Origin: an uncultured Litoreibacter sp. | GTDB taxonomy: Bacteria > Pseudomonadota > Alphaproteobacteria > Rhodobacterales > Rhodobacteraceae | Length of the DNA: 64,000 nucleotides | Assembly (NCBI RefSeq): GCF_947501785.1 | Contig: NZ_CANMXB010000001.1 | Location: 1 to 64,000 of the forward strand | Reading direction: 5' to 3' | In this document: positions 8,618 to 36,547 of the stretch, piece by piece | How the letters are laid out: every line of letters begins with the position of its first letter | Position numbering within the stretch: the first letter of the stretch is position 1 | Program-made: the position numbers and the translations under genes | The notes under the pieces: model-generated | The model's database searches: none | The model's input: the letters and a program-made list of their open reading frames with translations, nothing else | What the model was told of the DNA's origin: nothing

Positions 8618-8629
8618 GGGAGACGTGAG

Positions 8630-9139: not shown

Positions 9140-9141
9140 GA

Positions 9142-10434: not shown

Positions 10435-10539
10435 ACCCATGTGGTAACCGCCTTGGGGCCAAAAGGAAATTGCCGAAACGGGCCTACCGTCATTGAATGG
10501 GTTTGGCTATGGTGCCTTCAAATCAGCGGGGTAGCACCG

Positions 10540-11937
10540 ATGAGCGGGCAGGACACAGACGCAAAAGACACCGTCCCGGAAGCAACAGAGGACGGCTACC
10601 AGCTGGATCGCAGCCTTGTGCAGCAGGTGCTGGAGGCGATTGATACCGCCGACGCCACGGCGCTTGATTCGCTGCTTGAACCGTTACACCCCGCCGACAT
10701 AGCCGACCTGCTGGAACAGATAAGCGGGCCGGAACGACGCTCGTTGCTGTCCCTATGGTCAACCGGTCTGGACGGGGAGGTCCTTTCCGAGCTTGGGGAG
10801 TCGCTGCGCGAAGAGGTGATCGAGTACCTGCCCAACCACGTGTTGGTGGGCGCTGTGCGCGAGTTGGAATCAGATGACGTCGTCGACCTGATCGAAGACC
10901 TTGAGGACGACCAGCAAGAGCTGATCCTTGAGGCGCTGGACGACGCGGACCGTGCGGTGGTCGAGGACGCGCTGAGCTACCCTGAGTTTTCTGCCGGCCG
11001 CCTGATGCAGCGCGAGATGGTGGTGGCCCCCGATCACTGGAATGTCGGACAGGTTATCGACTTCATGCGCCGGCATGACGACCTGCCAGAGCAATTCTAC
11101 CACGTGATCTTGGTCGACCCAGCCTATCACCCGACCGGGTACGTCACCTTGGGCCGTATCCTCGGAGAAAAGCGCGCGCATCTTTTACGGGACATGACCG
11201 AGGACAGCTTTCGCACCATCCCCGCCTCGCAACCCGAAGGTGACGTGGCCTATGCGTTCAATCAATACCACCTGATCTCTGCCCCCGTGGTGGACGAGGA
11301 TGAACGGCTGGTCGGCGTGATCACCATCGACGACGCCATGGTCGTGCTGGATGAGGAGGCCGAAGAGGACATCTTGCGCCTTGCTGGGGTTGGGGGCGAC
11401 GAAAGCATTTCGGACCGGACGCTAGAGACCGTCAGGCAGCGCTTCCCCTGGCTGGCAGTGAATTTGGTCACCGCTATCCTGGCCTCGCTGGTGATTGCAC
11501 AATTTGAAGAGATACTCAGTCAGATCGTGGCATTGGCGGTACTGATGCCGATTGTGGCGTCCATGGGCGGCAACGCGGGCACTCAGTCGCTGACCGTTGC
11601 CGTGCGCGCTATTGCGACGCGGGATTTGACCGGCGCCAACCTGCTGAGGGTTGTCCGAAGGGAGGCCGTGGCCGGATTGGTGAACGGGCTGATTTTTGCT
11701 GTGGTGATGGGCGTGATCGGCGTCTTGTGGTTCGGCACGCCGCTTTTGGGCGTTGTGATCGCCGCGGCGATGGTTGTGAACATGGTGGTGGCGGCACTTG
11801 CCGGCATCCTGATCCCCATCGGTCTGGAAAAATTGGGTGTGGACCCTGCGCTCGCCTCTGGTGCATTCGTTACCACGGTCACGGATGTCGTTGGCTTTTT
11901 TGCGTTTCTGGGGTTGGCGGCAGTGATGTTGATCTGA
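10540..11937 (+). CDS. mgtE: Magnesium transporter MgtE
   Basis: A 465-residue magnesium channel of the MgtE family. The N-terminal superhelical domain (about residues 20-145) contains LEPLHPADIADLLEQISG. Two CBS domains follow (about 150-275), with LISAPVVDEDERLVGVIT. The C-terminal five-helix membrane domain begins near residue 300 with RFPWLAVNLVTAILASLV and includes the pore-lining signature MPIVASMGGNAGTQSLTV. The ATG at 10540 is chosen because it gives the usual family length. It is transcribed alone, divergent from guaD. No Mg-sensing leader is evident in the short upstream gap. Confidence 0.95.
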   Translation: MSGQDTDAKDTVPEATEDGYQLDRSLVQQVLEAIDTADATALDSLLEPLHPADIADLLEQISGPERRSLLSLWSTGLDGEVLSELGESLREEVIEYLPNHVLVGAVRELESDDVVDLIEDLEDDQQELILEALDDADRAVVEDALSYPEFSAGRLMQREMVVAPDHWNVGQVIDFMRRHDDLPEQFYHVILVDPAYHPTGYVTLGRILGEKRAHLLRDMTEDSFRTIPASQPEGDVAYAFNQYHLISAPVVDEDERLVGVITIDDAMVVLDEEAEEDILRLAGVGGDESISDRTLETVRQRFPWLAVNLVTAILASLVIAQFEEILSQIVALAVLMPIVASMGGNAGTQSLTVAVRAIATRDLTGANLLRVVRREAVAGLVNGLIFAVVMGVIGVLWFGTPLLGVVIAAAMVVNMVVAALAGILIPIGLEKLGVDPALASGAFVTTVTDVVGFFAFLGLAAVMLI

Positions 11938-20476: not shown

Positions 20477-21643
20477 TTAGTCAGCATCAGGACGTCGGCC
20501 CATAACGCTAAGCAGTGCGAAAGCTAGAACGGCCCAAATGATCGACAATTGGATGGCCATTTTGAAGCTGACGAATTGGGCTGTTAGCCCCATCAAAGGA
20601 CTTGCGAGCAAGCCACCCATAAAAAGGCTGTTCATGTACAGTGACGTTGCTCGCGCAAGCCGCCCTTTTGCAAACTCCTGAACATAGGTCAGCCCGACCG
20701 CAGCGAATATTCCATAATACAAGCCTTCCAGTGCCGCGCCGTAGATCAGTTGGGGCAGCGTGGAAACGTTCGACAAGACCACCAATGCGACAACGGCAAT
20801 CACAGCGGCGGCGCGCAAGGCATCACGGGGCCCAAGTCTTTGAATGATCCAAGGCGATGACAGGATCGCCGCTATTTCAACGAAAGTTTTGACCGAAAGA
20901 GAGAGTCCTGGGGCGTAAGTCGGCAATGCCGCCTCTCGGATGTAAAACAAGGGGAGGGCGCTCATTGACATGGAATGAGCCAATGCGAAGGCCAGGCAAA
21001 CGCCCGCTGCCAGCCACAGCCCGGTATTGGCGGGTTGGGTGGACGTGTCTGCGAAGTCGTTGGCCGTATTGGCAGGCGGTGCCGAAAAGGCTTTGGGCAT
21101 CACGGCCATCCACAGCAAAAGCCAGACCGCGCACAACCCCAACGCCATCCAAAACACTGCATAGGAGGAGGACACGCTGGCGATTGAGAAGCTGGCGGCG
21201 GGGGCCAGCATCCAGCCCAACGAGGTCATCGCACGGAGATATGAGTTGTAACGAGGGATGTTCAGCCCATCAGTTTCCGCCATTAACCGGCCAAAGCTGT
21301 ACATTGTCGAAACCGCGGCGTTCGAGATGGCAAAACACGGGCTTGCAAACAAAACCAGCACCCAGAAATTCGCGAATACCAAAATCGAGGTCACACCAGC
21401 CCCAAAGGCCACGACTGATGCTAAGACCAATGGCGCAATCGGTGTGCCTGCATCGATCCATTCGCCATATTGTCGGTTGACGACCAATGTCAGCGTCAGC
21501 GTTGTCGACGCGTAGACGCTGATGAACCAGGGGTCCTGACCGAGCGTTTCTACAATGTAGACACCCATGTATGGTATAACTGAGGCATTGCAGATCACAC
21601 CTGTGAGCAGCAGCAAAAGGGCGGCCTTCGCACGATGGGTCAT
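20477..21643 (-). CDS. MFS transporter, sugar-efflux-like
   Basis: A 388-residue major facilitator protein with about twelve transmembrane helices. Stretches such as AALLLLLTGVICNASVIPYM and the middle loop after FSAPPANTANDFADTS fit the 6+6 layout. The helix pattern and the family-like GRLMAETDG and RAMTSLGWMLAPAASF segments resemble sugar efflux (SetA-like) transporters. The ATG at 21643 has GAGGTG upstream and is preferred over 21661. It is the last gene of the ugp operon, starting seven bases after the second UgpE-like gene. Export of sugar left after dephosphorylation is a plausible role but unproven. Confidence 0.75.
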   Translation of the reverse strand: MTHRAKAALLLLLTGVICNASVIPYMGVYIVETLGQDPWFISVYASTTLTLTLVVNRQYGEWIDAGTPIAPLVLASVVAFGAGVTSILVFANFWVLVLFASPCFAISNAAVSTMYSFGRLMAETDGLNIPRYNSYLRAMTSLGWMLAPAASFSIASVSSSYAVFWMALGLCAVWLLLWMAVMPKAFSAPPANTANDFADTSTQPANTGLWLAAGVCLAFALAHSMSMSALPLFYIREAALPTYAPGLSLSVKTFVEIAAILSSPWIIQRLGPRDALRAAAVIAVVALVVLSNVSTLPQLIYGAALEGLYYGIFAAVGLTYVQEFAKGRLARATSLYMNSLFMGGLLASPLMGLTAQFVSFKMAIQLSIIWAVLAFALLSVMGRRPDAD

Positions 21644-21650
21644 TGGCACC

Positions 21651-22484
21651 TCAGAACGCATTTTTTTCGTCGGCCAAGGCCCGGAAAAAGTAACGCTGAA
21701 AGATCAACACAAGGATCAGCGGCGGAAGTATCGAAAGCATGATGAGCGCCATGCCCGGCCCGCTTTCCTGCCCGATCAGCCGTATGCCGCGCACAAGCGT
21801 ATAGCGGCTTTCGTCGGTGCTGATCATGAGTGGCCAAAGATACTGGTTCCACCCGATCATGAATGTGACGACAAAAATTGCACCGCCCCGCTTCCATGAC
21901 AGCGGTACGATGAAATCCAAGAAGAACCTGACGGGCCCGGCGCCATCCAATTTGGCGGCCTCAAGATACTCGTTTGGAAAGCCCAGAAAGAGTTGCCGAA
22001 AGAACAGCGTGCCAAGGGCGACCGCAAGCATCGGTAGTACCATTCCGAGATGAGTATTGATCAGCCCCAATGCGTCTGTGACGAGGAACGTAGTGATAAA
22101 GCGGCTTTCCAACGGCAACAGCAATGTGGCGAGCGTCAGCCAGAACAGAAATCCCGCAAATGGCAGGCGAAAATACACCATTGCATAGGCCCCGCACAGG
22201 GAGACCAGCGTCGTGCACCCTGCCACGCCAAGGGCGATGATGAGCGAATTTTTCATCATGTCCAAGGCCGTGATCTGATCGGTGAACCCAGCCTGCATGG
22301 TCAACACCTGGGCGTAGTTCTCTGGTCCGTTGAGGCCGGGAACCAACATCAACCCGTCCTGAACCAACGTTCCCGTTTGATGCGTGGAAGACGCAAAGAT
22401 GATCAGGATTGGCAGCATCAAAAAGGCCACGCCGGCAAGCAGGATAATGTGGTTTCCCGCCGCACGCAGCGTGTGAATTGACAT
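21651..22484 (-). CDS. Second UgpE-like carbohydrate ABC permease
   Basis: A 277-residue MalG-type inner membrane permease with six TM segments. The EAA loop is NEYLEAAKLDGAGPVRFFLD (about residues 180-199). It is clearly paralogous to the UgpE protein encoded at 24348, sharing blocks such as MKNSLI, AYAMVYFR, LLPLE, FFRQ and WNQYLWPL. It has no binding protein, ATPase or UgpA-type partner of its own, so it may pair with the local UgpA and UgpC. ATG 22484 is preferred; a GTG at 22493 overlaps the upstream stop. The extra permease is unusual for ugp operons. Confidence 0.85.
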   Translation of the reverse strand: MSIHTLRAAGNHIILLAGVAFLMLPILIIFASSTHQTGTLVQDGLMLVPGLNGPENYAQVLTMQAGFTDQITALDMMKNSLIIALGVAGCTTLVSLCGAYAMVYFRLPFAGFLFWLTLATLLLPLESRFITTFLVTDALGLINTHLGMVLPMLAVALGTLFFRQLFLGFPNEYLEAAKLDGAGPVRFFLDFIVPLSWKRGGAIFVVTFMIGWNQYLWPLMISTDESRYTLVRGIRLIGQESGPGMALIMLSILPPLILVLIFQRYFFRALADEKNAF

Positions 22485-22489
22485 AGTTG

Positions 22490-23275
22490 TCACGCCTTGA
22501 AAGCGGCCTGAGAAATGGTGAGGAGTTCGTCGAATATGTCAGGCGATCCCGCGATAACGCGGCCTCCATCCTGCAGCATTTCCTCCGCACTTTGGCATTC
22601 AATTTGGCCGCCCGCCTCGGCAATGAATAATTGCCCGGCCAGGCAATCCCATGCGTTCATATGCGGCTCAGCGTAGCCAATCAGCCGGCCTGCAGCGACG
22701 TAAGATAGCATCAAGCCGCCCGATGCATTGCGAAAGAAGATGCCGCCGCGCGCAGAGAGCGCAGCGATCAGGTCGGCGGCCATATGTGTGGCCGTTCGCC
22801 CGTTCATACCCACACCAACACTGCCATCGTTCAGCCCGCTGGTGCGCGCGATAGACATCTTCGCCCCATTGACGAAGGCGCCTTGGCCCCTTGCGCCCCA
22901 AAACAGTTCGCCGCCAGACGGTTCATAAATTGCCCCGAGCTGAGTCTGGTCATCCTTCACGCAAGCCAGGATCACACACCATTGCGGTATTCCGGCGACG
23001 AAATTTGCCGTGCCGTCTATTGGGTCGATCACCCATGTCCACCCGGACCGAGACACCACATCGTCATATTCCTCCCCAACAATCCCGTCTTCGGGGAAAG
23101 CCGCAGCCAGCCGGGAGCGCACGAAGGTTTCCACCTCAAGATCGGCGTTCGATACCATGTCTTGCGCGCCCTTGGATTTGATGTCCAAAGAAGAAATGTC
23201 TTTGAAATACCCCAACGCCATGGCTCCGGCGTCCCGCGCAATGCTTTTGGCAGCGGTAAGCCGGGCTGTTGTCAT
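22490..23275 (-). CDS. Inositol monophosphatase family phosphatase
   Basis: A 261-residue metal-dependent phosphatase. The metal ligands are GEEY (residues 67-70) and DPIDGTANF (84-92), and the second signature [19 protein letters not shown] is near the C-terminus. The TAN sequence after DG is the standard IMPase form, unlike the HisN-like protein at 6486. Family members hydrolyse myo-inositol phosphate, sugar phosphates or nucleotide phosphates. It sits between ugpC and the second permease with four-base overlaps on both sides, taking the place usually held by ugpQ. A role in releasing phosphate from imported sugar or inositol phosphates is likely but inferred. Confidence 0.88.
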
Positions 23276-24348
23276 ACCAGCCGCTCACCTGTGTCCTTGC
23301 GGAACACAAACGCGGTCGCTGGATCGAAGCTGAGGCGCAACGCGGCGTCGAGGTCAGGCAGCAAAGCCTTGTTGCCTTTCAGGCAAATCTCCAGCTCATC
23401 GCCTTCGTCGTTGGTCGCTCCTTGCAAAGCCCCATAGACAAGGTTTTCGCCGCCATGCTGCTCTACCAGATCGACACGCATGTCCAATTGTCCCTTGGCG
23501 GATTGCGTCATTACGTCGGGACGCACACCAAGCACCAGTTCGGTTTGTTCCGGTAGGTCCTTGAACCCCGCCAGTTTCAGCGTTCCGTTGTTCAGTGTCT
23601 TGCCGTCATATGTCACGGGGATCAGGTTGATCTGCGGCGCGCCGATAAAGGAGGCAACGAAGAGGGTTTTCGGATTGGAATACAGCTCCATCGGAGCCCC
23701 CATCTGCTCTACCAGCCCTTCGTTAATGACCGCCAGCCGATCCGCCAAAGTCATCGCTTCGGTCTGGTCATGGGTCACGTAAATCGAAGTCACATTCATG
23801 CGCCGTTGCAGCCGCTTAATCTCGATCCGCATCTGCACGCGCAGCTTGGCATCAAGGTTCGACAGTGGTTCATCAAACAGGAAGACCTGCGGGTTGCGCA
23901 CAATCGCACGGCCCATGGCGACGCGCTGCCGCTGCCCGCCGGACAGTTGATTGGGCTGGCGGTCGAGGAACTGGTCGATCTTCAGCATGGAGGCCGCTTC
24001 ATTGACCCGCTTCTCAATCTCTGCCTTGTCCATCTTCCGGTTCTTCAGCCCGTAAGACATGTTCCCGCGCACCGACATATGCGGATAAAGCGCGTAGTTC
24101 TGAAACACCATCGCTACGTCCCGCTCTGACGGGGAGACGTCGTTGATCACCCGGTCCCCGATGGAGATGTCACCTCCGGAAATGCTTTCCAGCCCCGCCA
24201 CCATCCGCAGCAAAGTGGATTTGCCGCAGCCTGAGGGACCGACGAACACAATCATCTCGCCGGATTTGATATCCATGTCGACGCCGCGAATGGCTTCCGC
24301 CCCGTTGGGGTAGGTCTTGCGGACGGATTTTAGTTGAACACCCGACAT
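23272..24348 (-). CDS. ugpC: sn-glycerol-3-phosphate ABC transporter ATPase UgpC
   Basis: A 358-residue ABC ATPase of the MalK/UgpC type that powers the permease. Walker A is GPSGCGKST (residues 37-45), the signature is [19 protein letters not shown], and Walker B is [18 protein letters not shown]. The C-terminal TOBE regulatory domain (about 240-355) includes [10 protein letters not shown]. It lies directly after ugpE with one shared base and overlaps the IMPase gene by four bases, so all are translated as one operon. Operon content and the strong UgpB match support the ugp assignment; other sugar ATPases look similar. Confidence 0.9.
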
Positions 24349-25193
24349 TATTTCTCGCTTTCTACGAGGCCCTTAACGAACCAGTTTTGGAAGATCAGGA
24401 CCACCAATACCGGGGGCAGGGTGGCCAGAATGGTCAGCGCAAAGGCCTTTTGGAATTGCGGCAGCTCGCCGCCTTCGTTCAGCACCTGGTAGATTTGTTT
24501 GATGCCGATCACCAAGGTGTAGTTCTCCTCCTTGGTGGTCATGATCAGCGGCCACAGATACTGGTTCCAGCCCACCACGAACATGATGATCAGGATGGCC
24601 GCGATCATGGTTTTGGACAGCGGTACCAGAATGTCGATGAAGAACCCCCATGACGTGGCCCCATCCAGCCGCGCGGCCTCTAGCAGCTCATCCGGGACGG
24701 ACCGAAAGAATTGCCGGAAGAAGAACGTGCCAGTTGCAGACGCAATCAGCGGAATGATCAACCCCGCATGCGTGTCCAGCATCCCCATGTCGGCCACCAC
24801 CTTGTAGGACGGGATGATCCGCACTTCCAAGGGCAGAAGCAGCGTCATGAAGATGATCCAGAACAGGGGCACGGCCAGTCGGAAACGGAAGTAGACGATG
24901 GCATATGCCGCCAACATCGAGATCACGACCTTGCCCACAGCAAAGCCCACGCCCAAAATCAAACTGTTCTTCAGCATCGCGGTTGCGGTGACCTTTTTCA
25001 TCACCCCGCCTTCGACAAACAGCACCTCGTTATAGGTTTCAAGAAAATGTCCGCCGGGCCAGATTTGCAGCCCCTCGCGCAAGATCGTCTCTGGCGCGTG
25101 GGTGGATGTGGCGAAGGCGACCCAGACTGGCAGCGTCATAAAGAGCGCGCCGCAGATCAGGATCAGGTGGGTTGCAATAGAAGAGCGGTTCAT
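24348..25193 (-). CDS. ugpE: sn-glycerol-3-phosphate ABC transporter permease UgpE
   Basis: A 281-residue inner-membrane permease with six TM segments, belonging to the MalG/UgpE family. The EAA loop is [20 protein letters not shown] (about residues 172-191). The sequence [20 protein letters not shown] is typical of UgpE. It overlaps ugpA by one base upstream and ugpC by one base downstream, so translation is coupled through the operon. A paralogue lies two genes downstream. Confidence 0.93.
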
Positions 25194-26071
25194 CAGTAAT
25201 GCACCTTCTTCTCAATGAAGCGGAACTGGATCACCGTCAGCGCCAGCACCAGCAACATCAGCACCACCGATTGTGCCGAGGACCCGCCGATATCAGCTCC
25301 CCGGAAACCGTCCTGGAACACTTTGAACACCAGTGTCGTCGTGGCCCCGCCCGGCGCGCCTTGGGTGGTCGTGTCGATGATCCCGAAGGTCTCGAAAAAC
25401 GCGTAGGTGATGTTGATCACCATCAGGAAAAACGTCGTCGGCGCCAGCAGCGGGAAGGTGATGGTCCAGAACCGGCGGAACGAGCTTTTGCAATCCATAA
25501 GCGCGGCTTCCTGCACTGACTTGGGGATGCCTTGCAGCCCTGACAGGAAGAAGATGAAATTCACGCTGACCTGTTTCCACACGGAAATCAGGACCACGAC
25601 AAAGCCTGCATCCACCGGGTCCAGCTTATGGTCAAAGTCAAAGCCAACAGCGTTCATGAACCCATAAAGATCCCCGATCAGCGGGTTGAACATCAGGTTG
25701 CCCATCAGACCCGCCACGGGGGGCGCAATGGCGTAGGCCCACATCAGCAGGGTCTTGTAGGTGCTGGCCCCTTGGATGACCTCGTTGGCTTTGACGGCCA
25801 GCAACAATGCCAACCCGAGCGACATGAAGGTCACAAGGAAGGAGAAGATCATCGTGAACCACGCGGCCTGAAGCCATGCGCCGGACAGGATGGTGTCAGA
25901 GTAATTGCGGAACCAAACGAACTGCGAGGACAGGCCAAAGGCGTCCTCAAGCAGGAAAGATTGGTACACCGCTTGTGCGGCGGGCCAGAGGAAGAAGATC
26001 ACGATAATGATGATCTGCGGCGCCACAAACAAATAGGGGATGGGGCTGTGTTCGTATTGAACGCGCTTCAT
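25193..26071 (-). CDS. ugpA: sn-glycerol-3-phosphate ABC transporter permease UgpA
   Basis: A 292-residue permease of the MalF/UgpA family with six TM segments. The N-terminus YEHSPIPYLFVAPQIIIIVI is characteristic of UgpA. The EAA-type loop is KSVQEAALMDCKSSFRRFWT (about residues 195-214), with Cys and Lys in place of the usual Gly-Ala, as in UgpA. A hairpin lies between ugpB and this gene, which would lower its level relative to the binding protein. Confidence 0.93.
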   Translation of the reverse strand: MKRVQYEHSPIPYLFVAPQIIIIVIFFLWPAAQAVYQSFLLEDAFGLSSQFVWFRNYSDTILSGAWLQAAWFTMIFSFLVTFMSLGLALLLAVKANEVIQGASTYKTLLMWAYAIAPPVAGLMGNLMFNPLIGDLYGFMNAVGFDFDHKLDPVDAGFVVVLISVWKQVSVNFIFFLSGLQGIPKSVQEAALMDCKSSFRRFWTITFPLLAPTTFFLMVINITYAFFETFGIIDTTTQGAPGGATTTLVFKVFQDGFRGADIGGSSAQSVVLMLLVLALTVIQFRFIEKKVHY

Positions 26072-26095
26072 TGAACGGTGCTTTCAGGGAATTGG

Positions 26096-26130
26096 AAAAA
26101 GCGGCCAGCAAGGCATTCCCTGCTGGCCGC
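26096..26130 (-). terminator. Intra-operon hairpin between ugpB and ugpA
   Basis: Read on the minus strand, GCGGCCAGCA and TGCTGGCCGC form a perfect 10-bp stem (26101-26110 with 26121-26130) followed by five T residues. It lies in the 67-base gap after ugpB. Such partial terminators or RNA-stabilising hairpins commonly raise binding-protein output over permease genes. Confidence 0.8.
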
Positions 26131-26138
26131 AATCGGCA

Positions 26139-27422
26139 TTAATTCATCGATGCGTCGAAGCGTTCGAGCAGCGCGTTGCTCTCTTCTTCCATCGCATCAA
26201 AGGCTGCATCTACGGTCGAAGCACCGGAGAAGATGTTGTCGTATTGCTTGTACATCGCCTCACGAATTTGCACGTAGAAGCCAAGGCGATAGCCTTTGGT
26301 CCACTCGCCCGCGCGCTGGGTCAGCTGCGTGATACCCACCTCAGCGTCCGGTGTGGTCTCATAGTAGCCGTCCGACTTGGCCAGCTCATAGGCTGCGTTG
26401 GTGATCGGGACATAGCCGGTTTCCTTGTGCCAGAAATATTGCATCTCAGGGCTGGTCAGGAACGCCATGAAGTCGGCAACGCCTGCATTTTCTTCGTCAG
26501 GCTTGCCAGCCATGGCGAACAGCGCTGCACCGCCAATGAATGTGCCGTAAGGTTCGTCAGTGATGGACTTCCAGTAGGGCAGCTCAGCCGCGCCAAATTC
26601 GAACTCAGCCGATTTAGCCAGCCCGCCGAAGGAGCCGGAAGACCCCAGCCACATCGCCGTTTTCTGCTGCACAAAGGCGTCTTGGTTGTCGCCCCAGCCA
26701 CGGCCGTAGAAGCCGTACCAGTCATTGTCCAACCATTCCTTCACCTTACCCCAATGCATCTTCATTTCGTCATTGTTGTAGAGGATTTTTACGTCCGTGG
26801 TGTCATACCCGTTGTTGCCGGTAGCCAGCTGCAGATTGTGACGGGAATGGAAGTTCTCGGAGAAAATCCAGGGGCTGTGGCTTTGCGCAAGCGCTTGGTA
26901 GCCGGCCTCTTTGATCTTCGGAGCCATGGCTTCGAACTCTTCCCATGTCGCAGGAGGTGTGTCGATGCCTGCCTTCGCCAGAATGTCCTTGTTGTAATAC
27001 AGCAGCGGCGTCGACGAGTTGAACGGCATGCCGATCATGTTGCCGTCGCTGTCGGCGTAGAAGTTGCGCACGCCTTCGATGTAGTCTTCGGCGTTGAAGT
27101 CCGCCATCAGTTCAGCAATCGGGACAGTCGCGCCTTTGGCGTTGATGATGGTCGCCGCGCCGGCGTCGAAGATTTGGATGATGTTTGGTTGCTGCTTGGC
27201 GCGGAATGCCGCGATGCCGGCTGTCATCGTGTCCTCGTAGCCGCCTTTGTAGGTCGGAACCAGGTTGTAAGTGTCTTGGCTGGCGTTGTACTTGGCCGCG
27301 ATTTCTTCGACGACTTCGCCCAAACGTCCCCCCATTGCGTGCCAGAATTGGATGTCGGTGGCAGCCGACACTGGCGCTGCGACGGTCATAAACCCAGCCG
27401 CCATCACTGTTAAAAATTTCAT
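26139..27422 (-). CDS. ugpB: sn-glycerol-3-phosphate-binding protein UgpB
   Basis: A 427-residue periplasmic solute-binding protein with a Sec signal peptide ending near SAA (about residue 21). The mature start TDIQFWHAMGGRLGEVVEEI is the UgpB hallmark, and MPFNSSTPLLYYNKDILAKA and SQDTYNLVPTYKGGYEDTM are further matches. In E. coli UgpB binds glycerol-3-phosphate and glycerophosphodiesters. A good Shine-Dalgarno (AAAGGGG) precedes the ATG. The 487-base upstream region carries a Pho-box-like repeat on this strand, so induction under phosphate limitation is likely. Confidence 0.94.
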   Translation of the reverse strand: MKFLTVMAAGFMTVAAPVSAATDIQFWHAMGGRLGEVVEEIAAKYNASQDTYNLVPTYKGGYEDTMTAGIAAFRAKQQPNIIQIFDAGAATIINAKGATVPIAELMADFNAEDYIEGVRNFYADSDGNMIGMPFNSSTPLLYYNKDILAKAGIDTPPATWEEFEAMAPKIKEAGYQALAQSHSPWIFSENFHSRHNLQLATGNNGYDTTDVKILYNNDEMKMHWGKVKEWLDNDWYGFYGRGWGDNQDAFVQQKTAMWLGSSGSFGGLAKSAEFEFGAAELPYWKSITDEPYGTFIGGAALFAMAGKPDEENAGVADFMAFLTSPEMQYFWHKETGYVPITNAAYELAKSDGYYETTPDAEVGITQLTQRAGEWTKGYRLGFYVQIREAMYKQYDNIFSGASTVDAAFDAMEEESNALLERFDASMN

Positions 27423-27482
27423 AGTATTGCCCCTTTCTAAGGATCACAGAGTGCTCGCAGAAGTGGTTATAAGGGGCAAAAA

Positions 27483-27500
27483 GTAACCGCTGCATGACAG
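27483..27500 (-). promoter_or_regulatory. Pho-box-like site for ugp operon
   Basis: On the minus strand CTGTCAT (27500-27494), four bases, then CGGTTAC (27489-27483). This has the 7-4-7 direct-repeat geometry of a PhoB box, with the first half perfect and the second half close to the CTGTTAC form. It lies 61 bases before the ugpB start. Confidence 0.6.
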
Positions 27501-27554
27501 TGCCGCGGACGCGCAATTCCCCCCAATTATCTTCGAAACATTCAGCGGGATCGG

Positions 27555-27572
27555 CTGTGAGTCAACTGTGAG
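27555..27572 (+). repeat. 11-bp-period tandem repeat CTGTGAG
   Basis: CTGTGAG occurs at 27555-27561 and again at 27566-27572, spaced by TCAA. The period is the same 11 bases as PhoB half-sites, but the half-site differs at the end from CTGTCAT. It may be a weak Pho site or a site for another activator. Confidence 0.35.
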
Positions 27573-27864
27573 TCTAAAAATTTTGCGCAGACTCATGAAG
27601 CCAGACTACCGCCGCTGTCGGGCGTTCCCGGGCGAAACTCCTCAACCATTAGCCTGCTACATGTGCTTAAAAATATAGGCTTTTGGCCAATGCGGCAGTC
27701 TTTCACCACCGTATTCATTTCAATCGAAAGATGTGGCGAATGTCGGAGCAATCCTGACCTGGGAGCGCACTGCAAAGGGCGGAGATGACGCTTGCGATCG
27801 AACCGCACCACACAATGCCGGTGCCAGAAAAAGTTTGCCAGCTGCCGTAACCGTACATAGGCTG

Positions 27865-27882
27865 ATGTCATAATACTGTTAC
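27865..27882 (+). promoter_or_regulatory. Pho-box-like site for afuABC operon
   Basis: ATGTCAT (27865-27871), AATA, CTGTTAC (27876-27882). This matches the PhoB direct-repeat consensus at 6 of 7 bases in each half, with the correct four-base AT-rich spacer. It lies 27 bases before the afuA ATG, close to the promoter. Confidence 0.7.
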
Positions 27883-27909
27883 AAAACAGATTTTCTGGGA
27901 GGAAAATTC

Positions 27910-28932
27910 ATGACTTCATTTAAGGCGATGCTCAGCGCATCGGCGGTTGCGCTGATGACGACTGGCGCGGCTCAGGCTGACAAACTCACTTTCTATTGCT
28001 CCGCTCAAGAGGATTGGTGCCAGTTGATGGCAAACTCCTTTCAAGATGCAACGGGCATCGACGTGGCCATGACCCGCAAATCATCGGGGGAGACTTTTGC
28101 CCAGATCAAAGCCGAAAGTTCCAACCCCAAAGGTGATGTTTGGTGGGGCGGTACAGGTGATCCTCACCTTCAGGCTGCCGAAGAAGGTCTGACCGCGGAA
28201 TACGTGTCGCCGATGCGCGACCAGCTGCATCCGTGGGCAATCGCCCAAGCGGAGAGCGCAGGCAACAAAACCATCGGCATTTATTCCGGGGCTCTGGGCT
28301 ATGGGTTCAATACTGACCTGCTTGCCGCCAACAACCTTCCGGAGCCTACGTCCTGGGAAGACCTGACCAAGCCGGAATACAAAGGTCACGTTCAGATGGC
28401 GAACCCAAACTCATCCGGGACGGCTTACACAACATTGGCCACAATGATGCAGCTGTTCGGTGAGGAAGACGGCTTTGACTTCATGAAAAAGCTTCACGTC
28501 AACATCAACCAATACACCAAATCTGGCTCCGCCCCGATCAAGGCTGCGGGCCGCGGGGAAAACACCATTGGCATCGTCTTCATGCATGACGCCGTGAAGC
28601 AAGCTGTGTCTGGCTTCCCTGTGAAGGTGGTCGCCCCGGCCGAGGGGACAGGCTACGAGATCGGGTCAATGTCGATCATCGACGGCGCGCGCAATATGGA
28701 CGAAGCCAAGAAATTCTACGACTGGGCTTTGTCGGCTGAGGCGCAGAACCTAGCATTGCAGGTCAACGCGTTTCAGGTGCCTTCCAACATGGGGGCCGAG
28801 ACTTCGGAAAGCGCGCCGGACATGTCGAGCATTAAGCTGATCGACTATGATTTCAAGAAATACGGCTCTTCCGACGAACGTAAGCGCCTCTTGAAAAAAT
28901 GGGATGACGAGGTGTCCGTCCTGCCACAATAA
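27910..28932 (+). CDS. afuA: AfuA-like periplasmic binding protein, probable sugar-phosphate binder
   Basis: A 340-residue periplasmic binding protein with a signal peptide ending ...AQA (residue 23). It would normally be labelled ferric-iron binding. However, it lacks the double tyrosine of FbpA: that position reads GIVFMHDAV, with His226 and Asp227, and Glu250 follows in GTGYEIGSMSIIDGARN. His/Asp/Glu at this spacing match the sugar-binding residues I recall for AfuA, a hexose-phosphate binder of Actinobacillus. YCSAQ at the mature start and NSSGTAYTTLAT also fit AfuA. A Pho-box-like site upstream supports a phosphorylated ligand. A phosphonate is the alternative. Confidence 0.78.
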   Translation: MTSFKAMLSASAVALMTTGAAQADKLTFYCSAQEDWCQLMANSFQDATGIDVAMTRKSSGETFAQIKAESSNPKGDVWWGGTGDPHLQAAEEGLTAEYVSPMRDQLHPWAIAQAESAGNKTIGIYSGALGYGFNTDLLAANNLPEPTSWEDLTKPEYKGHVQMANPNSSGTAYTTLATMMQLFGEEDGFDFMKKLHVNINQYTKSGSAPIKAAGRGENTIGIVFMHDAVKQAVSGFPVKVVAPAEGTGYEIGSMSIIDGARNMDEAKKFYDWALSAEAQNLALQVNAFQVPSNMGAETSESAPDMSSIKLIDYDFKKYGSSDERKRLLKKWDDEVSVLPQ

Positions 28933-28935
28933 ATC

Positions 28936-31149
28936 GTGCGCGCACTGACATCTGAAAAAACGACCCATCCGGTATTGGTCTTCTGGATCATCGCCGGTTG
29001 GGTCGGATTTGCTTTGCTCCCGTGGTTTGGGATCGAAGACTTCTTTACGTTTGAATGGCTTGTCGACGGGTATCCGTTTGACGAAGATTATGCGCCAGCT
29101 GCCTTTCTGATCGCCCAAGGCGAAAAGCGCTGGCTGGCCCCTCTGATACTGGCGTTGTTGGCACCTCTCGTAGCGCTCAAGCGGCCAAAATCTGATCCGA
29201 TCTTTGCAAAAATCCTTATTGGCGCAGGGGCATTTGGGTTTGGTTGGTTGATCCTTCAGGGGTTTGCCATAGGGATCCGCGGCTGGAACTTCGAATGGGC
29301 GGCACAGCTTTTTGGCGATCTCGGTGACCGACAATATGGGATGGGGTATGGCGGCCTGATCTGCGCATCGGCGTTTCTGTTTCTTTTTTGTCAGGGAATT
29401 GCCGCCCGCGGGGCAATCAATGGCGACGTTTTTGTGGTCAGTTCGATTGGTGGTGTGATCGTTATTGTCACGGTCTTCGTGTTCTTCCCAATCGCCAAGA
29501 TGCTGACCGCCGCTTTCATTACAGATGACGGTGGTTATTCCGCAGGTGTGTTCGCCTCAAAATTCTTTGATGATCGGCTCTGGGGGCTTGGTTGTCTCTC
29601 CGGCGGGCGATGTGGCGTTGCGCTGAACTCGCTCTTCTTGGCTATTCTCGTAGGGTTCATCACCACAGCGCTGGGTCTTGTCTTTGCGTTGGTCGTTACG
29701 CGGTCCGGCTTCCGTTACAAGCGGCTGCTGCGGGCGCTGACGGTGTTACCCATCATTACGCCGCCGTTTGTGATCGGGCTGGCGCTCATCTTGCTCTTCG
29801 GTCTGTCAGGGTCGGTCACGGTATTTTTCGCGGATGTTTTTGGCATCCAGCCAACCCGTTGGCTTTACGGGTTGCCGGGGGTGTTAATTGCTCAAACTCT
29901 TGCCTTCACACCAATCGCCTTTCTTGTGCTGATAGGCGTGGTGGAAGGGGTCTCGCCGTCGATGGAAGAGGCCGCCCAGACACTTCGCGCCTCAAAATGG
30001 CAGGTGTTCAAGACCGTATCCCTGCCGCTCATGCGTCCTGGCCTGGCGAATGCCTTTCTGTTGGGCTTTATCGAAAGTATGGCGGATTTCGGAAATCCCT
30101 TGGTGCTTGGTGGCAATTTTGATGTGCTGTCCACGGAAATTTTCTTCGCCATTGTCGGGGCTCAATATGACCAGGGCAAAGCGGCGGTGCTTGCGATGGT
30201 CTTGCTCTGCTTCACCCTTGCGGCCTTCTACGCGCAGCGGTTCTGGCTGGGAAAGAAGAGCTACACCACGGTGTCAGGAAAAGGCGATAGCGGGGTGCAC
30301 CCGCATTTGCCAAATGCATTGTCAGTACCTGTGCTCGCGCTTGCGTTGATTTGGGCGGCATTCACGGGTCTGGTTTACCTCATGATCTTGTATGGGTCGG
30401 TGGTCGAACTCTGGGGGGTGAATAACACTCTTACCTTCAAGCATTACGTTACGGCTTTCTCATTCCGGCTGGAGGAAGGCGGCATTCGATGGTCCGGTGC
30501 TGCATGGGACAGCTTTTGGACCACGCTCAAAATTGCCGGAATTGCTGCGCCGCTTACCGCCATTGTCGGACTTATCACGGCCTATCTGCTTACCCGCCAA
30601 AACTTCGCGGGCAAGAATGCATTTGAATTTGGCACAATGCTCAGCTTCGCAATCCCCGGGACGGTCATTGGGGTCAGCTACATTCTGGCATTCAACGTGC
30701 CACCGATAGAGATAACGGGCACAGGTATCATTCTTGTCGTCAGCTTCATCTTCCGCAATATGCCGGTGGGCGTGCGTGCCGGAATTGCGTCCATGTCGCA
30801 GCTCGACAAGTCGCTTGATGAATCGTCGCTCACGCTTGGCGCAAATTCTTGGCAAACTTTCCGCCGGATCATCCTGCCGCTCTTGCGCCCCGCAATTCTG
30901 GCCGCGCTGGTCTATTCGTTCGTGCGGGCGATGACCGCGATTTCCGCGGTGATCTTCCTTGTAAGCGCCGAATATGACATGGCGACCAGCTACATTATCG
31001 GACGCGTCGAGAACAACGATTACGGCCTGGCCATTGCCTATTCGACAACCCTGATTTTCGTGATGTTGAGCGTCGTCTTGGCGATGCAATTGATTGTAGG
31101 CCGCACCAAAATCGGTCGACGCATGTCGCAGTCTCGAACCAATGTGTAA
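28936..31149 (+). CDS. afuB: Double-domain ABC permease AfuB-like
   Basis: A 737-residue permease in which two six-helix units are fused in one chain. A hydrophobic N-terminal region (about residues 1-240) precedes them. The two EAA loops are EEAAQTLRASKWQVFK (about residue 343) and DESSLTLGANSWQTFR (about 627), each followed by PLxRP. Fused permeases of this kind are typical of FbpB/AfuB systems, and this one is longer than a usual pair. The GTG start at 28936 lies three bases after the afuA stop. It should form the membrane channel with two copies of the ATPase encoded next. Confidence 0.88.
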   Translation: MRALTSEKTTHPVLVFWIIAGWVGFALLPWFGIEDFFTFEWLVDGYPFDEDYAPAAFLIAQGEKRWLAPLILALLAPLVALKRPKSDPIFAKILIGAGAFGFGWLILQGFAIGIRGWNFEWAAQLFGDLGDRQYGMGYGGLICASAFLFLFCQGIAARGAINGDVFVVSSIGGVIVIVTVFVFFPIAKMLTAAFITDDGGYSAGVFASKFFDDRLWGLGCLSGGRCGVALNSLFLAILVGFITTALGLVFALVVTRSGFRYKRLLRALTVLPIITPPFVIGLALILLFGLSGSVTVFFADVFGIQPTRWLYGLPGVLIAQTLAFTPIAFLVLIGVVEGVSPSMEEAAQTLRASKWQVFKTVSLPLMRPGLANAFLLGFIESMADFGNPLVLGGNFDVLSTEIFFAIVGAQYDQGKAAVLAMVLLCFTLAAFYAQRFWLGKKSYTTVSGKGDSGVHPHLPNALSVPVLALALIWAAFTGLVYLMILYGSVVELWGVNNTLTFKHYVTAFSFRLEEGGIRWSGAAWDSFWTTLKIAGIAAPLTAIVGLITAYLLTRQNFAGKNAFEFGTMLSFAIPGTVIGVSYILAFNVPPIEITGTGIILVVSFIFRNMPVGVRAGIASMSQLDKSLDESSLTLGANSWQTFRRIILPLLRPAILAALVYSFVRAMTAISAVIFLVSAEYDMATSYIIGRVENNDYGLAIAYSTTLIFVMLSVVLAMQLIVGRTKIGRRMSQSRTNV

Positions 31150-31158
31150 GGAAAGCAG

Positions 31159-32223
31159 ATGAGCATCAGTTCGAAGGCCGCACCCGTCATTTTCAAAGAT
31201 GTCACCAAGATATACGGCAAGGACGTGGTCGCCGTAGACAACATCAATCTGGAAATCGAGGCAGGAAAGCTGGTGACGCTTCTGGGACCCTCGGGGTGCG
31301 GGAAGACGACAACATTGCGCATGATCGCTGGGCTTGAGATGGCGACTAAGGGGGCCATCCAGATCGGCGACAAGGATGTCACCTTGCTGCCTGCCACGGA
31401 TCGCGATGTGTCCATGGTCTTTCAGAGCTACGCTTTGTTCCCCCATATGACGGTGATGGAAAACGTGTCCTACGGGCTGGGGTTTTCGGGGTTTGACAAA
31501 TCTGAGACGCGTGACCGGGCGGCAGACGGGCTGGATTTGGTCGGCCTCAAGGGCTTTGGAGACCGCTTGCCGTCCGAACTGTCTGGCGGCCAGCAACAGC
31601 GGGTTGCAGTGGCGCGCGCGCTTGTTCTGGAGCCTCAGGTTCTTCTGTTTGACGAACCGCTGTCGAACCTTGATGCGAAGTTGCGCCGTCAGGTGCGCGA
31701 AGACATCCGGGACATTCAGCAAAACCTCGGGCTTACTGTGGTCTACGTGACTCATGACCAGGAAGAAGCATTGGCGGTATCAGACGAGATTGTGGTGATG
31801 CGCAATGCGGCGATTGCGCAGATAGGCTCCCCCCGTGCGCTCTATGACGAGCCTGCTGACCACTTCGTCGCAGATTTTATTGGCGAGGCGAATATCATCC
31901 CATGCGAGATCTCTTCCGTGTCTGGCGATCAGGCGAAGATCAACATTGACGAATTTACCCACGTTCTGCCGGCACGCGGCCTGCAACCCGGTGCCGCATC
32001 GTTGGCGGTCAGGCCGACGCGCCTGATCCTCGGCGCGGAAGTTGGGCTGGAGATGCAGGTGAAGAAGGCGACCTATGTTGGCAGCAGAATGGAATACACA
32101 TTGGAAGCCAGTTTTGGCCAGGTTTTTGCGATAAGCGAGGAAGTGGACGAGCCACATGAGGTTGGCGAAACCATCATGGTAGGGCTCGACGCGATCTGGC
32201 CGGTCTTGCTGCCGGCACGCTAG
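31159..32223 (+). CDS. afuC: ABC transporter ATPase AfuC-like
   Basis: A 354-residue ABC ATPase. Walker A is GPSGCGKTT (residues 43-51), the signature is LSGGQQQRVAVARALVLEP, and Walker B is [23 protein letters not shown] domain follows (about 275-350), with SLAVRPTRLIL. It lies nine bases after the permease gene and completes the three-gene AfuABC-like operon. The protein belongs to the FbpC/PotA-like branch, so sequence alone cannot tell iron, polyamine and sugar-phosphate systems apart; the binding protein and promoter do. Confidence 0.88.
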   Translation: MSISSKAAPVIFKDVTKIYGKDVVAVDNINLEIEAGKLVTLLGPSGCGKTTTLRMIAGLEMATKGAIQIGDKDVTLLPATDRDVSMVFQSYALFPHMTVMENVSYGLGFSGFDKSETRDRAADGLDLVGLKGFGDRLPSELSGGQQQRVAVARALVLEPQVLLFDEPLSNLDAKLRRQVREDIRDIQQNLGLTVVYVTHDQEEALAVSDEIVVMRNAAIAQIGSPRALYDEPADHFVADFIGEANIIPCEISSVSGDQAKINIDEFTHVLPARGLQPGAASLAVRPTRLILGAEVGLEMQVKKATYVGSRMEYTLEASFGQVFAISEEVDEPHEVGETIMVGLDAIWPVLLPAR

Positions 32224-34948: not shown

Positions 34949-35359
34949 TCAGTTGATCAGTATGGATGCGCGATCATAGCCCTGAACCATCACCGACCCG
35001 TCGTCAAATTGCAGCTCGACCGCAATATTTTGCAAGCTGTCCAACGGTGCAACGACATAAGGAAGATGGGTTTCAACTTTTAGTGCAGAGGGATTTGCCT
35101 CGCCTTCGTGACAAGGCTCATGTTGAAGAGGCTGAAATGGCCCTCCGTTATAGGCAAAACTGATCTGTTGAATGCCGCAGCGGTAGACCAGCAACGTAGA
35201 AAAATACAGGTGGTCTTTGCCATCATAAGGCCGCACCGCGACCCACTGCGCTTTGATCAGTTCCAGAATGGGTTTGACCCCGGCAGACGTTGTGAAGTCC
35301 TGAGCGCCTGCGGGCAGGGCGAAACACAGTGCGCAAAGGGTGGTGCGAATTAGGTGCAT
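34949..35359 (-). CDS. Exported protein of unknown function
   Basis: A 136-residue protein with a signal peptide (MHLIRTTLCALCFALPAGA, cut near residue 19). The mature part has a beta-rich look: LYFSTLLVYRCGIQQISFAY, two cysteines (one in YRCG, one in HEPCHEG) that may form a disulfide, and a final strand near VELQFDDGSVMVQGYD. I do not recognise a family. It is divergent from the glycosyltransferase-like gene, with 144 bases between the starts used here. Confidence 0.68.
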   Translation of the reverse strand: MHLIRTTLCALCFALPAGAQDFTTSAGVKPILELIKAQWVAVRPYDGKDHLYFSTLLVYRCGIQQISFAYNGGPFQPLQHEPCHEGEANPSALKVETHLPYVVAPLDSLQNIAVELQFDDGSVMVQGYDRASILIN

Positions 35360-35503
35360 TGGATATCCCTAACCAACAAACGTTTGTTGGAGTATGTCGC
35401 CCCGACGCCCCCATTTGAAGTCTTTTCATTTGCCACCTTGTTTGGCTTTCCGTCCGCGAGCAAAAATTCTACTGTCGGGGCAACAAGAAGTAATGTGACC
35501 CAG

Positions 35504-36547
35504 ATGGCAGCAAAACCGACAAGCAAACCCCCAAAGGCAGTGCGGCCCAAGACCAAAGTGCAGCCGGATCGCTTCAATATCATGGCCGTCGTGCAGGCGG
35601 GCCGGCTGCAATACGAGGCTATTTTGCTGGCCGCTTCGCTGCGCCATACCAACCCGGATTTTAAGGGGCGTTTGCTACTGGCAGAGCCGCAGTTGAATCA
35701 TCGTTGGGACACGAACCCTTCGGTGGTCAATCCGGAGGTGCGGGCCTGCCTTGAAATGCTCGGCGCGGAGTTTGTACCGTTCAAAAACCAGGTCTTCGGG
35801 GCTGGCTACCCCTATGGAAACAAGATCGAGGCTCTGGGGGCCTTACCCAAGGGTGAGCCGTTCTTGTTTTTGGATACCGACACGTTGATTACCGGTGATT
35901 TGTCGAAAGTCCCGTTTGATTTTGACCGGCCAACAGCATCCATGAAGCGGGAGGGAACCTGGCCGACAATAGAGCTGTACGGACCTGGGTACAGCGCGAT
36001 TTGGAAGTCATTATACGACAAGTTTGGATTGGACTTTGAGAGCAGCCTGGATCTGTCGCAACCCGATGAGTACTGGCAGCGTTATCTCTACTTCAACGCA
36101 GGCTTCTTCTATCATCGGTGCCCGCACGAGTTTGGGGCGCGCTTTTTGAAATTTGCCCGGCAAATCCGTGATGACGGGCCAGACGAGATCGTATGTCAGG
36201 TCCTGAAACCTTGGTTGGATCAGATCGCTTTGCCGCTGGTGGTTCATTCTTTCAACGGCGGGCGCCAGCCGGACGTGTCCGGCCCGATGGACCATGACGT
36301 GACCTGCCATTACCGCGTTCTGCCGCTGCTTTACGCGCGTGAACGCGACCATGTGGTGGATGTCTTGGAAGAGGTGTCAGCGCCAAACAAGATCAAAAAG
36401 GTGCTCAAGCAATACGAGCCGATGCGGCGGATCATTTTTCAAGGCAAAGGTCGGAAGGCGCGCGCAATATTTGATCGGGACAACTTGCCAAGACGTGAGC
36501 AGGCAATCCGCAACCAATTGAAACGAAACAAACTTTGGTTGCGCTGA
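35504..36547 (+). CDS. Glycosyltransferase-like protein with DxD motif
   Basis: A 347-residue soluble protein. The pattern FLFLDTDTLITGDLSK (Asp124 and Asp126) is the nucleotide-sugar-binding DxD of GT-A glycosyltransferases, in the setting seen in family 8-like enzymes. KIEALGALPKGEPF precedes it and FNAGFFYHRCPHE follows, as in that fold. The C-terminus is strongly basic (RREQAIRNQLKRNKLWLR). An upstream in-frame start at 35354 overlaps the divergent gene and adds an unlikely N-terminus; ATG 35504 is preferred. No other polysaccharide genes are nearby, so the acceptor is unknown. Confidence 0.65.
   Translation: MAAKPTSKPPKAVRPKTKVQPDRFNIMAVVQAGRLQYEAILLAASLRHTNPDFKGRLLLAEPQLNHRWDTNPSVVNPEVRACLEMLGAEFVPFKNQVFGAGYPYGNKIEALGALPKGEPFLFLDTDTLITGDLSKVPFDFDRPTASMKREGTWPTIELYGPGYSAIWKSLYDKFGLDFESSLDLSQPDEYWQRYLYFNAGFFYHRCPHEFGARFLKFARQIRDDGPDEIVCQVLKPWLDQIALPLVVHSFNGGRQPDVSGPMDHDVTCHYRVLPLLYARERDHVVDVLEEVSAPNKIKKVLKQYEPMRRIIFQGKGRKARAIFDRDNLPRREQAIRNQLKRNKLWLR

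Follow-up and report, generated by a model that had tools for sequence, protein, structure and literature searches.

At the start of the largest contig (NZ_CANMXB010000001.1) in the 3.89-Mb genome of an uncultured Litoreibacter sp., two ABC importers, UgpBAEC and an AfuABC-type system, lie on either side of a single intergenic region, and the ugp operon also holds genes for an inositol-monophosphatase-family phosphatase (IMPase), a second UgpE-like permease (UgpE2) and a major facilitator superfamily (MFS) protein. We asked whether these genes form a functional unit or are neighbors by chance; the DNA analyzed, which we call the window, is the first 64 kb of the contig. The answer that we favor, and regard as fairly probable, is that the island is an organophosphate import-and-dephosphorylation unit, in which AfuABC would import sugar phosphates of the hexose-6-phosphate type, UgpBAEC would import a glycerol-linked phosphate compound, and IMPase would free phosphate in the cytoplasm from the incoming sugar (or headgroup) phosphate; UgpE2 would probably take the place of UgpE in a second complex, UgpA-UgpE2-UgpC2, and the MFS protein may export the dephosphorylated product. 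A preliminary description of this DNA had already suggested uptake of phosphorylated compounds with removal of phosphate inside the cell, a suggestion that the ligand residues of AfuA, the phosphate residues of UgpB and the recurrent neighborhood of IMPase and afuABC all appear to support.

Layout of the island

The gene positions and families given in that description were confirmed, as all of its open reading frames (ORFs) were recovered at the same coordinates and Pfam and NCBIfam backed the family call of each island gene. The operons, which it had facing each other, actually diverge, with ugpBAEC-IMPase-ugpE2-MFS and afuABC leading away from a 487-bp intergenic region. The ugp operon comprises seven genes, with a 67-bp gap between ugpB and ugpA and overlaps of 1-11 bases at all later junctions, and the gaps within afuABC are 3 and 9 bases; because the gaps and overlaps are so short, each side is very probably one transcript.

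AfuABC and its probable substrate

The best PDB match of AfuA (positions 27910-28932, forward strand) was 4r72, an AfuA that binds glucose-6-phosphate (E 1.9e-94), followed by 8x1a and then by the pyridoxal-phosphate protein 6wce. When aligned with the AfuA of 4r72, the residues S59, T171, H226, D227 and E250 corresponded to S37, T150, H205, D206 and E229, so that all five ligand residues are kept, both those for the phosphate (Ser37, Thr150) and those for the sugar (His205, Asp206, Glu229). This pattern was STHDE in 41, TTHDE in 4 and STHGE in 1 of 46 AfuA sequences of at least 50% identity (the window's included); four listed homologs of 27-33% identity had lost it. AfuA is followed by AfuB, a fused permease of 737 residues with two BPD_transp_1 domains and an extra N-terminal segment (28936-31149, forward strand), which has relatives of 76-94% identity in Litoreibacter and in other genera, and by AfuC, an ATPase with a TOBE domain (31159-32223, forward strand). 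In one relative (genome G184, locus L142, positions 8196-11926; G and L numbers are our handles for genomes and loci) AfuB came in two pieces, 94% and 78% identical and separated by about 1.5 kb, so that the gene seems to be interrupted.

A different cargo, namely ferric iron, 2-aminoethylphosphonate (2-AEP) or pyridoxal phosphate, would make the island unrelated to sugar phosphates, and both the NCBIfam matches and the literature offer some grounds for it. The best matches, all below cut-off, were to a ferric model for AfuC (357.7 bits) and to the 2-AEP proteins PhnS2 and PhnU2 for AfuA (236 bits) and AfuB (269 bits), and afuABC goes by the name of a ferric iron transporter in the available texts on marine RCA and SAR116 bacteria (PMC10675870, PMC12262181). 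The models of the 2-AEP importer PhnS2/T2/U2 gave 236 against a cut-off of 393, 350 against 458 and 269 against 593, respectively. However, His205, Asp206 and Glu229, which the mutants in the available text of PMC4546632 show to be required for sugar-phosphate binding, are all present in the window's protein, whereas in our alignment the Asp and Glu of the motif are no longer present in 6wce. We consider such a cargo highly improbable.

UgpBAEC and a UgpB subfamily

UgpC (23272-24348) exceeded its NCBIfam cut-off (PRK11650, 511.4 bits against 432) and has Walker A, LSGGQ and Walker B, whereas UgpB (26139-27422; 359.7 against 411), UgpA (25193-26071; PRK10561, 300.7 against 335) and UgpE (24348-25193; PRK10973, 289.7 against 297), like UgpC on the reverse strand, fell below theirs. 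UgpA and UgpE are 95-100% and 95-99% identical, respectively, to the proteins of five other Litoreibacter cassettes. About 5 kb from the ugp cassette of G216 (L062, 15131-17789) there is a second CUT1-type importer, with identities of 52% for UgpC and about 27% for UgpE/UgpA.

The same four components make up UgpBAEC of Phaeobacter sp. MED193, which is treated together with GpxBACD of that strain in the available text of PMC12718374; structures are given there as 9LF9/9LFB (Marinobacter GpxB) and 9LFF/9LFJ (UgpB). Residues Y62, S137, S261 and Y337 of the window's UgpB correspond to the phosphate-contacting Tyr64, Ser143, Ser266 and Tyr342 of Phaeobacter UgpB, and Gly303, Arg393 and Trp191 (W185 in the window's protein) are kept as well. 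Unlike the Phaeobacter protein, a proven binder of glycerol-3-phosphate (G3P) and G1P with a two-tryptophan glycerol clamp (Trp188/Trp191) and Glu88, ours has H182, W185 and D86 at these places, i.e., His for Trp188 and Asp for Glu88. We then compared 95 UgpB sequences. A first set of 83, with 3 or more duplicates among them, had identities of at least 50%, and a second set of 12 had identities of 41% or less. Position 188 in the first set was His in 44, a partly read His in one, Gln in 34, Leu in 4 and never Trp, and position 88 was Asp in 82 and unread in one, whereas all 12 of the second set carried Glu88, 4 of them with Trp188 too. Because residues 88 and 188 split by identity, two UgpB subfamilies share one name; the one with Asp88 (and His, Gln or Leu188) was found in rhizobia, vibrios and roseobacters and is apparently uncharacterized.

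Asp at this position has a counterpart in UgpB of Mycobacterium tuberculosis, which we take to be the protein in PDB 6r1b and which has presumably lost the first clamp tryptophan, with Leu205 in its place. Unlike that protein, the window's UgpB matches the canonical structures far better (E 4.9e-100 to 9lff and 2.1e-89 to 4aq4, against 7e-21 to 6r1b). According to the available text of PMC12718374, the M. tuberculosis UgpB binds glycerophosphocholine with contacts at Gly306, Asp102 and Arg385, and thus likewise has Asp for Glu at the glycerol-hydroxyl contact. As Asp86 is the state of a glycerophosphocholine binder, a diester or larger headgroup is predicted, and a glycerophosphodiester seems a more likely substrate than free G3P. 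A single glycerophosphodiester phosphodiesterase (GDPD) is encoded in the genome, which is compatible with a diester and proves nothing. Canonical G3P specificity was rejected as the default for this UgpB in view of the changes from Glu88 to Asp and from Trp188 to His, and the label "glycerol phosphate" that had been given to the Ugp system is doubtful, as two glycerol-contact residues differ.

IMPase as a partner of AfuABC

IMPase (22490-23275, reverse strand) belongs to the Inositol_P superfamily (PF00459, 176.9 bits against a cut-off of 27) and has EE, DPIDGT and WD; these EE / DxxDGT / WD residues, which we take to be the metal-site motif, were kept in all 38 IMPases of at least 40% identity, ugp- and afu-linked copies and the window's own included. 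Its identity is 51-56% to afu-linked copies but 32-40% to the remaining IMPases of the genus, and in the rest of the family its closest relatives adjoin afuC; the window's genome has a separate, more distant IMPase (33%). Orthologs of at least 76% identity occurred in five other Litoreibacter genomes, each inside a ugpBAEC-IMPase-ugpE2 cassette. Seven Litoreibacter (G199-G205) had a relative of 51-56% by afuC in convergent orientation, with a small histidine-phosphatase gene between the two in G204 and G205, the latter on a contig with an afuB fragment only. IMPase is beside afuC in 7 and within the ugp operon in 5 of the 12 Litoreibacter genomes with afu; it was present in all 12 as against 1 of the 9 without afu (Fisher 4e-5, uncorrected for kinship, 3 of the 21 being drafts of 57-82% completeness).

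The association extends beyond the genus. We collected 29 afu loci from other genera (AfuB at least 76% identical, with G184 and its split AfuB included and a partial match in G019 left out), and 19 of them had an IMPase within about 1 kb of afuC (L134, L137-L141, L232-L234, L236-L241, L243, L245, L246 and L248). Over all loci, five (L064, L065, L140, L240 and L243) had a histidine-phosphatase gene between afuC and IMPase. Two of the ten loci without an adjacent IMPase are on contigs that end within 450 bp of afuC, and for six of the ten (G059, G184, G146, G133, G228 and G126) a genome-wide search found an IMPase of 43-69% at another place, that of G184 with one in-frame stop and that of G126 directly upstream of a canonical-type ugpBAEC. 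A more distant AfuB clade (55-59%, seven loci) had a co-directional IMPase after afuC in three cases (L146, L147 and L149). The other four (L143, L144, L145 and L148; AfuB 57-59%) all had genes for a response regulator (OmpR/PhoB-type in L144) and a sensor kinase beside afuA, which may serve as a dedicated sensor of sugar phosphates where other loci have a linked phosphatase, and G003 had an IMPase-family gene of 34% about 7 kb from afuA. In a tree of 49 IMPases (from 69 matches, after removal of duplicates, rows with stop codons and coverage below 70%; four rows were long-branched), the ugp-linked copies of six Litoreibacter, G146 and L152 formed one clade with support of 98/92. Judged from these neighborhoods and alignments, IMPase recurs as a companion of AfuABC throughout the family and in this lineage is located with Ugp.

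The enzyme could instead serve histidinol phosphate or myo-inositol phosphate made by the cell, or inositol phosphate from imported glycerophosphoinositol, with afuABC incidental. HisN is indeed its best NCBIfam match (TIGR02067, 162.9 bits), and glycerophosphoinositol would suit both a diester-type UgpB pocket and the single GDPD; yet the cut-offs of HisN (275) and of the inositol monophosphatase model (332, with a SuhB score of 131.4) were not reached, and the repeated placement of the gene by afuC or in ugp operons points to imported substrates. We think this account of IMPase quite unlikely.

Linkage of afu with ugp and gpx genes

For the cassette elsewhere, a contig scan listed the best 80 of 591 relatives. 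Within the genus, the ugp-IMPase-ugpE2 arrangement was found in six Litoreibacter genomes, of which five have afuABC and one, G211, does not. Since only the window's genome has cassette and afuABC adjacent, the exact combination is, as far as seen, specific to its species; in the other four with both systems, afu and ugp were on different contigs (G212, G213 and G216) or some 630 kb apart (G214).

Outside this combination, afuABC has other companions. GpxB-type genes (E 4e-149 to 9lf9) adjoined it in 9 of the 29 other-genus loci (L135, L236-L238, L240, L241, L243, L245 and L248). With them came a GlpR/DeoR-type regulator, except in L245, where none was found, and a HAD-IIA phosphatase, which in L238 is past the contig end. 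The probability of gpx falling within 10 kb of afu this often by chance is about 3e-14, for a 3.8-Mb genome and with related genomes treated as independent. gpx was also beside afuABC in two of the seven distant-clade loci (L149, and L147 with L251) and in five Litoreibacter (G201 by sequence; G199, G200, G202 and G203 by coordinates), and was located away from it in G204, G212, G213 and G216. In G220 and G281, afuABC, IMPase, gpx, the HAD phosphatase and a canonical-type ugpBAEC were contiguous. A Na/Pi symporter-type gene adjoined afuA in 11 loci (the one tested has a PhoU domain). We also considered whether gpx and the ugp cassette exclude each other among Litoreibacter genomes, and rejected this since G212, G213 and G216 carry both. 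Thus afuABC is repeatedly accompanied by a glycerol-phosphate-type importer, either Gpx or Ugp, and the window is the case where this partner is the Asp/His-type Ugp cassette. The linkage that the preliminary description had proposed to look for in relatives did not hold within the genus, where four other genomes have both systems; in several other genera, by contrast, afuABC does adjoin Gpx and/or Ugp importers.

Chance could have brought the importers together in this species, with Ugp serving for lipid-derived glycerol phosphates and AfuABC, unrelated to it, for sugar phosphates, and with IMPase as a general SuhB- or HisN-type housekeeping enzyme. This agrees with the separation of afu and ugp in G212, G213, G214 and G216 and with the best specific models for IMPase being those of HisN (163 bits) and SuhB (131 bits). 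It is opposed by the separate 33% IMPase of the same genome, by the 19 of 29 loci with IMPase next to afuC, by the adjacency of Gpx in 9 of 29, and by the contiguous afu, gpx and ugp genes of G220 and G281, and we regard it as unlikely.

One chromosomal site, adjoining a conserved gene pair that resembles hemX-hemY, holds ugpBAEC in G211 (L063) and G003 (L074) and afuABC in G212 (L096), as if Ugp and Afu importers replaced each other there.

Two promoters in the intergenic region

The preliminary description had reported one Pho-box-like repeat per direction in the intergenic region, and this held up by matrix rank, by shuffling and by a genome-wide count. The Pho position weight matrix (PWM), the Pho box consensus and the geometry of a PhoB-activated promoter (a direct repeat with the -10 about 10-11 bp downstream) are as we assume them to be, and the matrix and consensus are checked locally by a single match, which precedes an ORF that we read by eye as pstS. 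The two repeats ranked first and second by PWM across the whole window, with scores of 16.9 (afu side) and 15.4 (ugp side) against a best score of 12.7 in 300 dinucleotide shuffles of the intergenic region. Searching 3.89 Mb for CTGTYAYNNNNCTGTYAY with at most one mismatch gave 12 sites and the reversed control gave 5, which means that chance accounts for some of the 12. Two of them are the island's own (P about 0.014 for two among 12 random sites falling within 400 bp) and another is 102 bp before the ORF read as pstS. The genome encodes PhoB (337 bits, above the NCBIfam cut-off), and the ORFs before its gene look by eye like pstS to phoU. A further site among the 12 (G000:C1:747741-747758, L258) is before a gene resembling arsenate reductase/phosphatase, then an aquaporin-like gene (both by eye).

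On the ugp side, the -10 element TATAAC (27466-27471, reverse strand) lies 11 bp after the 18-base Pho box CTGTCAT-GCAG-CGGTTAC (27483-27500, reverse strand), the spacing that we take to be activating. Among the regions listed, seven lie upstream of a Litoreibacter ugpB of at least 88% identity (the window, L059-L063 and L097); each of them had the box at -76 to -78, and TATAAC, CATAAG, TATAGC or TATAAG lay 11 bp downstream in six of the seven. The ugp half is thus probably under PhoB activation, as predicted from this geometry, and because IMPase sits in that operon, a lack of phosphate should increase Ugp import and the release of phosphate at the same time.

The afu side differs. Its conserved sigma-70-type promoter (TTGCCA, 17-bp spacer, TAGGCT; 27835-27863, forward strand) directly precedes the repeat, ATGTCAT-AATA-CTGTTAC (27865-27882, forward strand), which begins at most 3 bases past the end of the -10, and the distance at which we would expect a -10 is occupied by TTCTGG and the Shine-Dalgarno (SD) region. 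A generic sigma-70 scan of the intergenic region detected no promoter. The comparison took in 38 regions upstream of afuA, each from a different genome and with an AfuA at least 70% identical to that of the window; L235 is not among them, and starts were set by our own SD-based rule. TTGCCN-N16-18-TANNCT was present in 9 (the window, L231, L094, L095, L230, L232, L142, L239 and L138), against a background of 0.0008 per shuffled region, and a Pho-like repeat (score at least 6, last 50 bases) was also present in 9, L136 being doubtful. Both came together in five (the window, L231, L095, L142 and L239), where the repeat started at most 3 bases after the -10, and by eye the same placement was seen in L093 (-10 TAGGTT) and, with a weaker -35, in L247 and L248. 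Speaking against a fixed pairing, the repeat was lacking from four of the nine promoters (L094, L230, L232 and L138) and from most of the 38 regions. The repeat went with the lack of an adjacent IMPase (7 of 12 loci against 2 of 26, Fisher 0.0017), although this association is weak: related genomes are not independent, L136 among the 7 has probably no true repeat, the contigs of L230 (in the 12) and L135 (in the 26) end just past afuC, and L235, with a repeat and no adjacent IMPase, is not in the count.

Transcription would start inside the afu repeat, and its position therefore suits a repressor. The repeat looks like an operator, at which bound PhoB would more likely block than activate; PhoB may repress here, or some other regulator may act on afu. 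The available text of PMC4415409 backs the 11-bp direct-repeat definition and has such regulators activating or repressing. PhoB activation of afuABC was rejected since the conserved TTGCCA-17-TANNCT promoter precedes the repeat. Pho control of both operons, as had been proposed, accordingly stands as a prediction for ugp, with its activating geometry conserved in 7 of 7, but not for afu, and joint induction is not supported because the afu repeat follows the -10 and only the ribosome-binding region is at the activating distance.

We tentatively raise the possibility of a reciprocal switch, in which phosphorylated PhoB would activate ugp-IMPase-ugpE2-MFS and repress afuABC, and in which IMPase, once the dedicated phosphatase of AfuABC, would have been captured by the Pho-activated operon. 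If so, sugar phosphates would enter as a carbon source at ample phosphate, and under phosphate scarcity the diester-type Ugp and the phosphatase would be switched on, with UgpE2 replacing UgpE and altering what the importer accepts. In such a promoter pair, the same type of box may activate one side and block the other.

UgpE2 and the MFS protein

UgpE2 (21651-22493, reverse strand; PRK10973, 215.6 bits) is 46% identical to UgpE and has an intact EAA loop. Orthologs of 82-86% were found in the five other Litoreibacter, of 61% in G146 and of 57% in L152. In a sample of 198 genomes of the family, G146 was the only one with a clear ortholog (61%); the next matches (47-50%) were single UgpE-like genes in their genomes, and nine genomes had a second, less similar UgpE-like match. 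As the IMPase-ugpE2 pair of L152 is convergent to ugpBAEC, the two genes evidently stay paired when the order changes. An AlphaFold model of UgpE2 (from a 7-sequence alignment) had a mean pLDDT of 38 and was not used.

The MFS gene (20477-21661, reverse strand; MFS_1, 66 bits) is the last of the ugp operon. The preliminary description had called its product SetA-like; TIGR00899, the SET sugar efflux model, did match, but with 85.7 bits against a cut-off of 522.3, so the label is weak. The gene is in five of the six Litoreibacter cassettes, with orthologs of 69-76% in four of the five others. The export reading is weak because the match is distant, the gene is not in every cassette and the basis is an analogy with SetA and YigL.

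Other features of the window

Elsewhere in the window, positions 41046-43181 encode a protein of 711 residues with RTX calcium-binding repeats and a C-terminal Hint_2 domain, and two ORFs of 822 and 397 residues (11942-14410 and 35354-36547) had no Pfam match at E 0.001. One tRNA was the only Rfam match at gathering level.

Discussion

Several observations weigh against an import-and-dephosphorylation unit. UgpB, UgpA and UgpE are under their NCBIfam equivalog cut-offs, and IMPase is below that of every specific NCBIfam enzyme model. Adjacency of ugp and afu is missing from the other four Litoreibacter with both systems. Genome-wide, no IMPase above 39% was found for 4 of the 29 other-genus loci (G064, whose contig ends just past afuC, G151, G089 and G108) and none above 37% in G288, G225, G003 and G103, which have AfuB of 57-59% and no adjacent IMPase. 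The fork of the tree that unites ugp- and afu-linked IMPases is weak (67/92) with long branches, and the relation is only approximate, although the identities of 51-56% and 32-40% given above favor the same grouping. Finally, the MFS gene is absent from L062 (G216) and L152, and L071 (G146) has a Bcr/CflA-family MFS gene at that place.

Each part of the island resembles a known system. As in AfuABC of Actinobacillus pleuropneumoniae and Citrobacter rodentium (PMC4546632, available text), the five ligand residues are present and the genes for binding protein, permease and ATPase are together; unlike there, afu is linked in the island to IMPase and a UgpB-type importer, and a term search of that text returned no phosphatase, marine, Rhodobacter, Rhizobi, Alphaproteobacteria or Pho regulon. 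Relative to UgpBAEC of Phaeobacter sp. MED193, the operon has IMPase, a second UgpE and the MFS protein added, and GpxBACD of that strain has its parallel in the gpx genes that adjoin afuABC in many relatives; neither AfuA nor phosphatase occurs in the available text of PMC12718374. A phosphatase and a SetA-type efflux pump belong to one response in the glucose-phosphate stress response of E. coli with SgrS, YigL and SetA, although the role of SetA itself remains elusive according to the available text (PMC4021124). Unlike in the window, the E. coli phosphatase is of the HAD superfamily, and the window's MFS protein is only remotely SetA-like and its sole Rfam match a tRNA. Among the matches listed from the open-licence literature, we found no description of ugp-IMPase-ugpE2-MFS combined with afuABC, and the island is a new arrangement built of known parts.

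In the sea, dissolved organic phosphorus includes pools of sugar phosphates and glycerophosphodiesters, and to our knowledge it is poorly known which organisms take them up. The recurring association of afuABC with IMPase and with Gpx or Ugp suggests that marine "ferric iron transporters" may include sugar-phosphate importers that come with their own phosphatase.

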